From Chloroflexota bacterium (GTDB lineage Bacteria; Chloroflexota; Dehalococcoidia; Lucifugimonadales; Lucifugimonadaceae): 64,000 nucleotides of DNA. Below, one piece after another: positions 59,115 through 61,864 of this stretch. Within the stretch, counting starts at the first letter, position 1, and every line of letters starts with the position of its first letter. A model generated the notes under the pieces. The model ran no database searches. It had not been told where the DNA came from and was given only the letters and a program-made list of their open reading frames with translations. The stretch spans positions 1 to 64,000 of the forward strand of contig JABMNO010000038.1 of the NCBI GenBank assembly GCA_013204555.1, given 5' to 3'. Both the position numbers and the translations under genes were made by a program.

Positions 59115-59120
59115 TGGGGC

Positions 59121-59140
59121 TGATGTACTTGACTCCGCTG
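59121..59140 (+). repeat. Left terminal inverted repeat of the IS1595-type element
   Basis: tgatgtacttgactccgctg, preceded by ggggc. Matches the right end at 18 of 20 bases. Confidence 0.8.
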
Positions 59141-59156
59141 GTGGTAGTATGCCGGG

Positions 59157-59975
59157 ATGTCGCGGATTACGTCCCTCTTCCGACCTTCTTATTGGAACCC
59201 GCTCTCAAGCCATACCGAGATATACCGACTTCTCATGGAGACCCGGTTGGAGCGCACGCGGTCAGAAACCCGTCTCGCGATTCATACGGTCTGGTTTTGG
59301 CTCGCGGAATTGGTTGGTGTCACCGTGGCACCAATAGTCGCAGTTGTTTTCCCGCCTTGTTTCATTGATATTGAAAAGATCGTCCAGGCAACAGCTTGGG
59401 CAGCGGGTCTAGGGCTGGCAACAGCAGCAGGGGTGTTGATCATTGTCATGTTTATTTCTTGGGTGTTTGCCCCTTCAAAGCAAAGAGATGAGTCGCGCTC
59501 TGAATTGAGACGAATATCCAAGTTTTTGGTGCTGGATACCCAACTCAAGCACTTGGCAAGCATTAGGGAGCGGGGGGTACGGGCGCGCAACGTTGCATCA
59601 ACCCGATGGGGTGATTTCAACTCAGATGACGAAAGAGATGACTGGTTGGCGGCATTCCCTAAGTGGCAGGGTGAAATTAAGGCAGTAATGGAACAGGTCA
59701 ACGATGCGGAAGCAGATTTATATGCCACTCTTGACCTTATCGAAGCGCCCTTGTTTGAGAGCATTGATGACGACGAAGTTCGGAGGGTTGTCCGGATGTA
59801 TACGCACCACTGCCGAAACATCAAAGAGTTCATTATTCGGCACAGGGACTACACCCAAACACTACCGCCCAGTTATGACGTGCATGAAGATGAACGGGGC
59901 ACGCTTACCGCGTCAAATCCTGAAACGTCAGACGATCTGCCTGAACCAGTTCCCGAAGAGCGTCCCGAAAAATGA
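59157..59975 (+). CDS. Passenger membrane protein of the IS1595-type element
   Basis: 272 residues, starting 16 bases inside the left inverted repeat. Two membrane helices (FWLAELVGVTVAPIVAVVF and AAGLGLATAAGVLIIVMFISWVF) near residues 45-110 are followed by a soluble helical region rich in Arg, Glu and Asp (RWGDFNSDDERDDWLAAFP) and an acidic Pro tail. I do not recognise a family. Its last 71 bases overlap the end of the convergent transposase. Placement within the element's repeats makes it cargo. Confidence 0.7.
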   Translation: MSRITSLFRPSYWNPLSSHTEIYRLLMETRLERTRSETRLAIHTVWFWLAELVGVTVAPIVAVVFPPCFIDIEKIVQATAWAAGLGLATAAGVLIIVMFISWVFAPSKQRDESRSELRRISKFLVLDTQLKHLASIRERGVRARNVASTRWGDFNSDDERDDWLAAFPKWQGEIKAVMEQVNDAEADLYATLDLIEAPLFESIDDDEVRRVVRMYTHHCRNIKEFIIRHRDYTQTLPPSYDVHEDERGTLTASNPETSDDLPEPVPEERPEK

Positions 59976-60807
59976 ACGGGTTATTCCGATAGTTGAACCT
60001 GAACTCAAACTCATCCAGATACCGCTCTAGGTGCTTCCGAGAGACCTTATGAAAACTGCCAGTCACGCCACGCTTGAAAAGCGACCACATACCCTCAATG
60101 GTGTTCGTGGTCACGTCACCGCGTACCCATTCGTCTTCGGAATGGTTGACCGTCTCATGGCGGGTGTTCTCATCACCGGCAATGTTCTTGTACGCAATCC
60201 ATTCATCTGTGTAGATCGCTTCCGCATCGTCGGAAATGTTCTCATCAAAGAAGTCTCGGATTTCCTTCGCAGTACGGTTCTCGGCAACCTTCATACGACC
60301 TTCACCGCCGCGCTCAATCGCACCCAGTACGACCGTCTTGTTGCCCTTGTAGCCTTGCCCTCTGCCACGGGTCTTGCCGCCAATGAACGTTTCGTCAACT
60401 TCGATGATCCCAGAGAGAAGTGCATCGGGGGTCTTCAACGCTTCACGGATGCGGTGAGAGAGATGCCACGCCGTCTTGTAGGCAACGTTGATCGTTCTAC
60501 CCAGTTGGCGGGCACTGATGCCCTTCTTGCCCTCTACGATGAGGTAGATCGCCATGAACCACTTCACAAGCGGGAGGTGAGTATCGTGCATGATCGTGCC
60601 GCTCGTTACCGAGAACTGATTCCGGCAATCCGAACACTGAAAGAGGTTCCTATTGGGTAGGTCTGTAATGCTCATAGAGCCACACACCATGCAAACAGGG
60701 CCGTTGGGCCAGCGCAGCGTTTCAAGGTACTCGCGGCACTGGTCCTCTGAGCCAAACTGCTCAATTAGTGCCATGAGGTTCATTTCATATGTCTGAGGCT
60801 GAGTCAT
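59905..60807 (-). CDS. IS1595 family transposase
   Basis: 300 residues. N-terminal zinc ribbon with Cys pairs at about 39/42 (CMVC) and 58/61 (CSDC), then the ISXO2-like DDE domain: Asp in IIEVDETFIGGK near residue 138, Asp in AIYTDEWIAY near 201, and Glu in TNTIEGMWSLFKRG near 238. The intermediate NHSEDEWVRGDV is conserved. No stop or frameshift, so it may be active. On the minus strand, overlapping the start of the small ORF and the end of the passenger. Confidence 0.95.
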   Translation of the reverse strand: MTQPQTYEMNLMALIEQFGSEDQCREYLETLRWPNGPVCMVCGSMSITDLPNRNLFQCSDCRNQFSVTSGTIMHDTHLPLVKWFMAIYLIVEGKKGISARQLGRTINVAYKTAWHLSHRIREALKTPDALLSGIIEVDETFIGGKTRGRGQGYKGNKTVVLGAIERGGEGRMKVAENRTAKEIRDFFDENISDDAEAIYTDEWIAYKNIAGDENTRHETVNHSEDEWVRGDVTTNTIEGMWSLFKRGVTGSFHKVSRKHLERYLDEFEFRFNYRNNPFIFRDALRELVQADRLTFQDLTR

Positions 60808-60962
60808 CTAAGAAACCCCGTCGGCGCAAGAAGCGGAAATTGCTACCTGATGCCGTATTCGATTTGCCTGACGATGAGGCGATATTGAAACTGTTCCCGA
60901 AGAAGGTCGTTGAGGCTATGAACAAGGTCGTTGAACACGTACCGAAACCCTCTAAGGAGTAG
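60789..60962 (+). CDS. 57-residue basic protein inside the IS1595-type element
   Basis: Reads MSEAESSKKPRRRKKRKLLP followed by an acidic and hydrophobic helix (DAVFDLPDDEAILKLFPKK, then VVEAMNKVVEHVPK). The Arg/Lys-rich N-terminus suggests nucleic-acid binding. It starts 19 bases inside the divergent transposase gene, antisense to its first six codons, and ends 15 bases before the right inverted repeat. It is short but the compositional pattern and location support it as a real accessory gene, perhaps a transposition regulator; that is inference. Confidence 0.5.
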   Translation: MSEAESSKKPRRRKKRKLLPDAVFDLPDDEAILKLFPKKVVEAMNKVVEHVPKPSKE

Positions 60963-60977
60963 TTTATGTCAGTTCCA

Positions 60978-60997
60978 CAGCGGAGTTAAGTATATCA
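60978..60997 (-). repeat. Right terminal inverted repeat of the IS1595-type element
   Basis: cagcggagttaagtatatca; its complement tgatatacttaactccgctg matches the left repeat at 18 of 20 bases. Confidence 0.8.
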
Positions 60998-61015
60998 TTC
61001 CTCATCTTCGACCCG

Positions 61016-61864
61016 ATGCCAATCTTCCCAACAGAGTTCGATGACATCGGAACGCTGGATACGCACGAGGCGCTGGTCGACTGGGGTGACGGAAGTACGT
61101 CCACGATTACCGTTGTGGAACCACTTGGAATCGTACGAGGTGTTATCACAGGAACACATACGTTCACGGAACCCGGCACCGTGACCGTCACGATCACCCT
61201 GACCGATGACGACGGCGCCAGCGATGTTGAAACGTTCCTTGTTGAAGTCAGAGGCTCACGCAGCTTGCTACAACGCGCCGCTGACAACCTCTCGAACCAC
61301 GAGGCAGAGTCGAACCACATCCGTAACGCCATCAAGGACCTGAACAAGGCGCTGGAAGATGAGAACTGGATTGATGAGATCCATGCTGACCCGAAGAAGG
61401 GCCAGAAAATCTTCCACTCAGCCGCTTCAGCTGTTCACCAGCTGGAAGAGGCCCTTGGGAAGGACGACCGCCATGGTGACGACGGCGATGATGATGAGCA
61501 CGACGAGAAGCACAAGAGCGCTCTCAGTCCCGAAGCACGTGCATCGATCGAGTCAGCCCTGAGCGACATTCAGATCGCCATCGTGCTGCTGGCGGAGATC
61601 CGTGTGGAAGAGTCGGCAGGCCTGATCGCACTTGACCCTGAAAACCAGGACGAAGTTGATCGCGAGAACGCGAAGGCCGCACAGGACTTCGTAGACGCCG
61701 GCAACTACGTTGCAACTGGCAGACTGGACAAGGGTATCCGTGAGTACGCCAAAGCCTGGCACCACGCCGTGAAGGCGGAGGAAGAGGCCCTGGAGCCACT
61801 CGACGACGATGACCACCACGGCGCCAGCGATGATGATGACGGCAAGAAGAAGAAGGACAAGTAG
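61016..61864 (+). CDS. PKD-domain protein, N-terminally truncated, with Asp/His-rich C-terminal region
   Basis: 282 residues. The first 75 are most of a PKD domain: EFDDIGTLDTHEALVDWGDG, then TGTHTFTEPGTVTVTITLTD with DDDGASDVETFLVEV. PKD domains are extracellular beta-sandwiches; the first strand and a signal peptide are missing. The rest is helical with acidic/His runs (DDRHGDDGDDDEHDEKHK and DDDDHHGASDDDDGKKKKDK) that may bind metal. The coding frame begins just past the right end of the IS element, so the insertion or an associated deletion likely removed the beginning. The product, if made, would not be exported. Confidence 0.7.
   Translation: MPIFPTEFDDIGTLDTHEALVDWGDGSTSTITVVEPLGIVRGVITGTHTFTEPGTVTVTITLTDDDGASDVETFLVEVRGSRSLLQRAADNLSNHEAESNHIRNAIKDLNKALEDENWIDEIHADPKKGQKIFHSAASAVHQLEEALGKDDRHGDDGDDDEHDEKHKSALSPEARASIESALSDIQIAIVLLAEIRVEESAGLIALDPENQDEVDRENAKAAQDFVDAGNYVATGRLDKGIREYAKAWHHAVKAEEEALEPLDDDDHHGASDDDDGKKKKDK

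Follow-up and report, generated by a model that had tools for sequence, protein, structure and literature searches.

An IS1595-family transporter insertion sequence with a conserved small protein and a cargo slot for apparently exchanged membrane proteins

The window, a stretch of 64,000 nucleotides from a Chloroflexota bacterium, contains an element of 1887 bp that, by its architecture and family membership, is almost certainly a transporter insertion sequence (IS) of the IS1595 family. Comparison with its relatives moderately favours a compact element in two parts, composed of a constant mobility module and a cargo slot in which membrane proteins have been replaced. The mobility module would comprise the DDE transposase, which would act on both ends (of about 25 bp) and generate an 8-bp target duplication, as well as a small basic accessory protein and a terminal repeat with an inward promoter. 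The cargo slot would extend from the transposase stop to the far end and, in this subgroup, would hold a membrane-anchored protein in fixed orientation, replaced as a cassette between elements. More tentatively, this protein may act at the membrane as an effector of defence or exclusion, in which case a new cargo would benefit the host and hence the element, and the diversity of cargo would reflect an arms race. The features of the window element are as follows.

59116..61002, minus strand (transposase orientation): whole element, 1887 bp, anchored on the TTGAC of the family end consensus
59116..59140, plus strand: cargo-end terminal inverted repeat, holding TTGAC at 59129-59133
59157..59975, plus strand: cargo gene for a 272-aa membrane protein; two transmembrane (TM) segments are predicted, at about residues 52-70 and 87-105, ahead of a helical C-terminal part
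59535..59846, plus strand: residues 127-230 of the cargo protein, its C-terminal domain, weakly shared with loci L163 and L164
59905..60807, minus strand: gene for an IS1595-family DDE transposase of 300 aa; it converges on the cargo gene, and the two overlap by about 70 bp at the 3' end of the latter
60789..60962, plus strand: gene for the small basic protein of 57 aa; it diverges from the transposase gene, whose start it overlaps
60961..60989, minus strand: putative inward promoter, -35-like TTAACT, 17 bp, -10-like TAAACT (60961-60966)
60978..61002, minus strand: transposase-end terminal inverted repeat, containing the -35-like TTAACT (60984-60989)

The element and its relatives

The IS1595 family is divided into the groups ISPna2, ISH4, IS1016, IS1595, ISSod11, ISNwi and ISNha5. 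The transposase of the window element matches the IS1595 profile NF033547 (E=1e-64) and contains both the catalytic domain (DDE_Tnp_IS1595, PF12762, E=9e-37) and the zinc ribbon (Zn_ribbon_IS1595, PF12760, E=2e-15) of the family. It is flanked by inverted repeats (59121-59140 and 60978-60997) identical at 18 of 20 bases, for which the chance expectation in 2.9 kb is about 0.007, and these repeats fit the end consensus of the relatives. An earlier note had described two such repeats enclosing a transposase, a membrane-protein gene and a 57-codon basic ORF, with the passenger starting 16 bases inside one end and the small ORF stopping 15 bases before the other; all these features were found and both distances are correct. 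The borders that it gave, 59115-61003, were close, and anchoring on the consensus moved them to 59116-61002. Its assignment to an IS1595-type element with extra genes also held, relatives with the same ends having a gene in the same slot.

Relatives were sampled by scanning genome contigs and viral contigs for the transposase, and by profile searches of four sets at phylum level (about 1,100 genomes) and of the genomes behind the first loci. After removal of duplicates, 46 distinct transposases of the subgroup were obtained, from Chloroflexota, Planctomycetota, Acidobacteriota, Actinomycetota, Rokubacteria and viral contigs. To call ends, a script matched inverted repeats to 8-bp duplications and to the end motif; both ends could be called in 36 elements (L066, L136 and L137 were excluded, their ends being uncertain), of which 25 have exact 8-bp target duplications, with an end consensus near GGTGATTATCTACTTGACNCNGG. 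Most elements are 1.7-2.5 kb long and some reach 3-4.6 kb. The order of genes is the same in nearly all of them: counted from the transposase-side end, the end repeat is followed by the small ORF, reading outward, by the transposase, reading inward, and then by a cargo gene that reads towards the transposase; the called start of the cargo gene usually lies 35-50 bp inside the far end. Transposases flanked directly by their ends and lacking a passenger, named in the earlier note as the finding that would speak against its proposal, did not appear as intact elements in the subgroup. L136, a short element whose ends are uncertain, retains only a 90-aa remnant in place of the cargo. In a viral contig, a truncated element of the subgroup (L066:4743-7172), which has kept the beta-rich part of its cargo but neither the TM part nor the far end, adjoins a RuvC-like gene inside a phage genome.

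The subgroup shares with the IS1595 family the Zn_ribbon_IS1595 and DDE_Tnp_IS1595 domains, the 8-bp duplications (in the relatives) and ends that often begin with GG. Where one account gives a lone transposase gene as the usual content of a family member (PMC8101967), however, the subgroup also has a cargo gene and a second gene that is conserved. The notion of transporter IS (tIS), an IS with passenger genes, is credited in several papers to the 2009 article that defined IS1595 (PMC3129680; PMC7986276; PMC12888890), and tIS66 carrying fosZ is given as an example (PMC12888890). As in these elements, the additional genes sit between the IS ends, in the window as well as in relatives whose duplications are exact; unlike them, the subgroup restricts its cargo to membrane proteins, of which almost every copy has a different one, and keeps a conserved small protein beside the transposase. 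No description of the subgroup was found in the open literature searched, the 2009 article standing outside that search. The subgroup would count as a new form of transporter IS, set apart by the conserved accessory protein and by membrane cargo that is apparently exchanged.

The window copy itself is flanked by no 8-bp target duplication, in contrast to the exact ones of 25 relatives, and its own mobility is therefore unproven. On its right flank, an ORF with a PKD domain (61016-61864) begins its domain match at about profile position 25 of 85, and its frame, as read from the sequence, runs back into the element without a stop. Because the N-terminal part of this ORF is missing at the border and the duplication is absent, one flank of the window copy appears to have been deleted, recombined with another copy or mis-joined in assembly. 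The genome of origin has a single copy of the passenger, and its further IS1595 transposases are related to that of the element only distantly.

The small basic protein and promoter-like signals

The 57-aa ORF has no match to known families, but a profile built on it (consensus MPxKKKxxxELTxxEAxxKLFPxxV, with the basic start MPxKKK) finds matches beside 38 of the 46 transposases, and in six of the remaining eight (L022, L139 and L147-L150) a short basic ORF that looks similar by eye lies in the same place. Among 251 Chloroflexota genomes the profile has eight matches, all of them beside a transposase of the subgroup. Between related pairs, differences at codon positions 1, 2 and 3 number 161, 128 and 286, a bias that identifies the ORF as a real protein; together with the conservation of the profile and its exclusive location, it rules out a chance ORF. 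Because it is conserved and found only beside these transposases, the small protein very probably belongs to the mobility module and not to the cargo, and we infer that it acts as a transposition co-factor or regulator. The earlier note had counted it as one of two non-transposase genes; conserved and exclusive to the element, it looks instead like a transposition accessory protein and not like a function delivered to the host.

Across the family, TTGAC stands in the transposase-side end, and in 90% of the elements, compared with 26% of shuffled sequences, a TATAAT-like box with at least four of six matches lies about 17 bp after it. This signal is probably the transposase promoter, which would read through the small gene in antisense. 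For a second inward promoter, at the cargo end, the backing is weaker (57% compared with 13% in shuffles), and none is visible in the window copy.

Membrane cargo and its probable replacement

Every well-delimited element of the subgroup has a cargo gene, always in the same orientation and in most cases with an intact frame. A hydropathy script called a TM segment among the first 140 residues or so in 27 of 31 cargo proteins, the sister lineage described below being left out of the count, and in 23 of 118 control ORFs of 180-450 aa taken from flanking DNA (P=4e-12). Of the four exceptions, L019 carries its TM segments further along, the C-terminus of L141 is hydrophobic, and in L134 and L137 the other ORF of the slot is a membrane protein. 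The sequences themselves are mostly unalignable between elements. By sequence, some cargo proteins are predicted to join TM segments to a helical domain (e.g., those of the window, L010, L014 and L152) and others to a beta-rich domain (e.g., L013, L068, L088, L067 and L131). Two weak models lie behind this division, one of the window protein (see below) and one of the L068 protein; the latter, built from three sequences (pLDDT 61), has two long helices and a beta-rich domain, and a structure search with it returned weak generic matches only. The earlier note had raised a conserved passenger as the sign of a delivered function; position, orientation and membrane character are indeed conserved, but the sequence is not, and it has apparently been replaced between elements.

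Similarity between transposases is a poor guide to similarity between cargo proteins. The cargo of L131 resembles that of L141 and L142 at the level of shuffled sequences, despite transposases that are 88% and 80% identical, and so does the cargo of L015 that of L016 (73%). The proteins of L131, L141 and L142 also differ in length and topology, the first having two TM segments and a beta-type domain, the second its hydrophobic C-terminus, and the third two TM segments and a coiled coil. Conversely, related cargo is found with distant transposases in the pairs L131/L067 (57%), L013/L068 (57%) and L068/L088 (58%). At the DNA level, identity is high in the transposase-side half, drops after the transposase stop and climbs again near the far end, the break being abrupt in several pairs. 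This mismatch between the two relationships indicates that the cargo is replaced as a cassette, and such an exchange may be regarded as highly probable from these sequence comparisons. Remnants of internal end repeats, which would point to stacking of elements as the route of exchange, were sought in the longer elements, with weak motif matches of which none is convincing.

It could instead be supposed that the membrane gene is a single resident gene of common ancestry that diverges so fast that its similarity has been lost, and not an exchanged cassette. This would agree with the constant position and orientation, with the frequent two-TM start, with the fact that some distant cargo pairs can still be aligned, and with the proteasome-like lineage described below, which keeps its cargo class at low identity. 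It is nevertheless unlikely, given that transposases 80-88% identical accompany unrelated cargo, that the cargo of L131 resembles that of a lineage only 57% identical, and that the DNA break is abrupt; the mismatch of transposase and cargo similarities disfavours it.

Other contents of the slot were found in related lineages. In the transposase tree, where branches are partly supported, L139 and L147-L150 form a sister lineage, near which lies L146, carrying a TM protein. The cargo of the sister lineage is related to proteasome beta subunits (PF00227, 1.5e-8 for L148); when a profile of the five sequences is aligned to solved beta subunits, the match runs from their mature N-terminal threonine onward, and T2 and D18 of L148 are invariant in the alignment. 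These proteins thus resemble the beta subunits and HslV (Ntn hydrolases) from the catalytic threonine onward, but differ from them in being borne singly on a transposon and in their low identity; they are absent from the window element. That this lineage retains one class of cargo indicates that exchange is not unlimited. A single-gene relative of proteasome beta subunits, with conserved N-terminal threonine, borne on a transposon (e.g., L148:5995-6906) is unusual in itself. Among more distant IS1595 elements with exact 8-bp duplications, L046:2399-3788 carries a Dam-type methylase and a PD-(D/E)XK nuclease, and L083:5896-8618 a DNA methylase with an Mrr domain and a RhuM-family gene. A third such element (L026:5074-5949), also with an exact 8-bp duplication, encodes a 291-aa protein with no Pfam match, in which a CxxC...GEH motif is reminiscent, by eye, of HNH-type nucleases.

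The presence of cargo in every well-delimited element, in one orientation and convergent with the transposase, would also be expected if the protein were a sequence-tolerant part of the transposition machinery, such as a membrane tether or a regulator of the transposase. This is improbable, since the cargo is not conserved in sequence as the transposase and the small protein are, and since the slot of related lineages holds a soluble hydrolase or restriction-modification genes. From its variability, the cargo would have no role in transposition.

Possible functions of the cargo

The passenger of the window, described in the earlier note as an unrecognised membrane-protein gene, has two predicted TM segments and indeed matches no known family, and no homologues were found in plasmids, phages or viral contigs. 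Its AF2 model without alignment is poor (pLDDT 55), with generic helical bundles as Foldseek matches. For the C-terminal domain, a search of 301 Chloroflexota genomes found weak relatives, and a profile search with the same domain in 201 genomes returned the window itself only. Two of the weak relatives, L163 and L164 (E about 2e-4 per genome, which is marginal for the number of genomes searched), are also similar to each other, and they support the view that the window ORF is real. L163 is a stand-alone 2-TM gene adjoining an IlvD-like gene. L164, also a 2-TM gene, is separated by 17 bp from a gene whose product has an Mrr restriction domain and matches the PADLOC candidate PDC-S02 (5e-8). 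The locus L164:458-2085, in which the 2-TM gene and a winged-helix-like Mrr-domain protein apparently form one operon, is a possible two-gene defence system. This one locus, at marginal E-values, hints at a nuclease partner. Passenger homologues free of the repeats, which the earlier note had set against its proposal, thus amount to these two, outside recognised elements and weakly similar (about 18-26% identity).

These stand-alone relatives in other chromosomes, like the diversity of the sequences, could suggest that the cargo is a neutral passenger, made of host genes caught by chance and without selected function. Such an origin has little probability, in view of the strong excess of membrane proteins, the fixed position and orientation, and the frames left intact in most elements. 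A toxin-antitoxin addiction module, with the membrane protein as toxin and the 57-aa protein as antitoxin, is very improbable and disfavoured, for although a small basic and a small membrane protein do share a single mobile element and such pairs are reported from other transposons (PMC7157771), the two do not co-vary, the small protein being recognisable and the supposed toxin unrelated from copy to copy, and their genes lie at opposite ends and not in one transcript.

Within the two-part element with replaceable cargo, it is tentatively proposed that the cargo is a membrane-acting effector of defence or exclusion. The contents of L046 and L083 provide the main indirect argument, by indicating that the slot can hold defence-type genes in the wider family. 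There is also a likeness to the two-TM membrane effectors of anti-phage systems, such as Cap15 of CBASS, in which, as in the cargo, two N-terminal TM helices precede a soluble domain of varied fold; it is a resemblance only, as the cargo differs from them in having no convincing PADLOC match and no partner gene in the element. A PADLOC search of 32 proteins gave three weak single matches (E 0.007-0.025), none of them for the window, and no convincing defence family in the TM group, a failure to match known defence profiles that leaves room for a new kind. Other cargo queries, including L164, found no homologues in plasmids, and two cargo queries against viral contigs matched only themselves. 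It is still more doubtful, though conceivable, that the elements form a dedicated-slot lineage of swapped effectors (membrane-anchored or, in the sister lineage, proteasome-like), which would constitute a mobile stock of defence or exclusion functions across phyla and viruses.

Insertion sequences are usually described as carrying just what movement requires. In nearly every well-delimited element of this subgroup, the cargo gene fills about 40% of the length, its place, orientation and membrane character being constrained and its sequence not. The small accessory protein may be a new component of IS1595 transposition that is open to clean testing, and, if the slot holds effectors of defence or exclusion, these elements would provide a ready catalogue of about 30 candidates, almost none of them with a family name.
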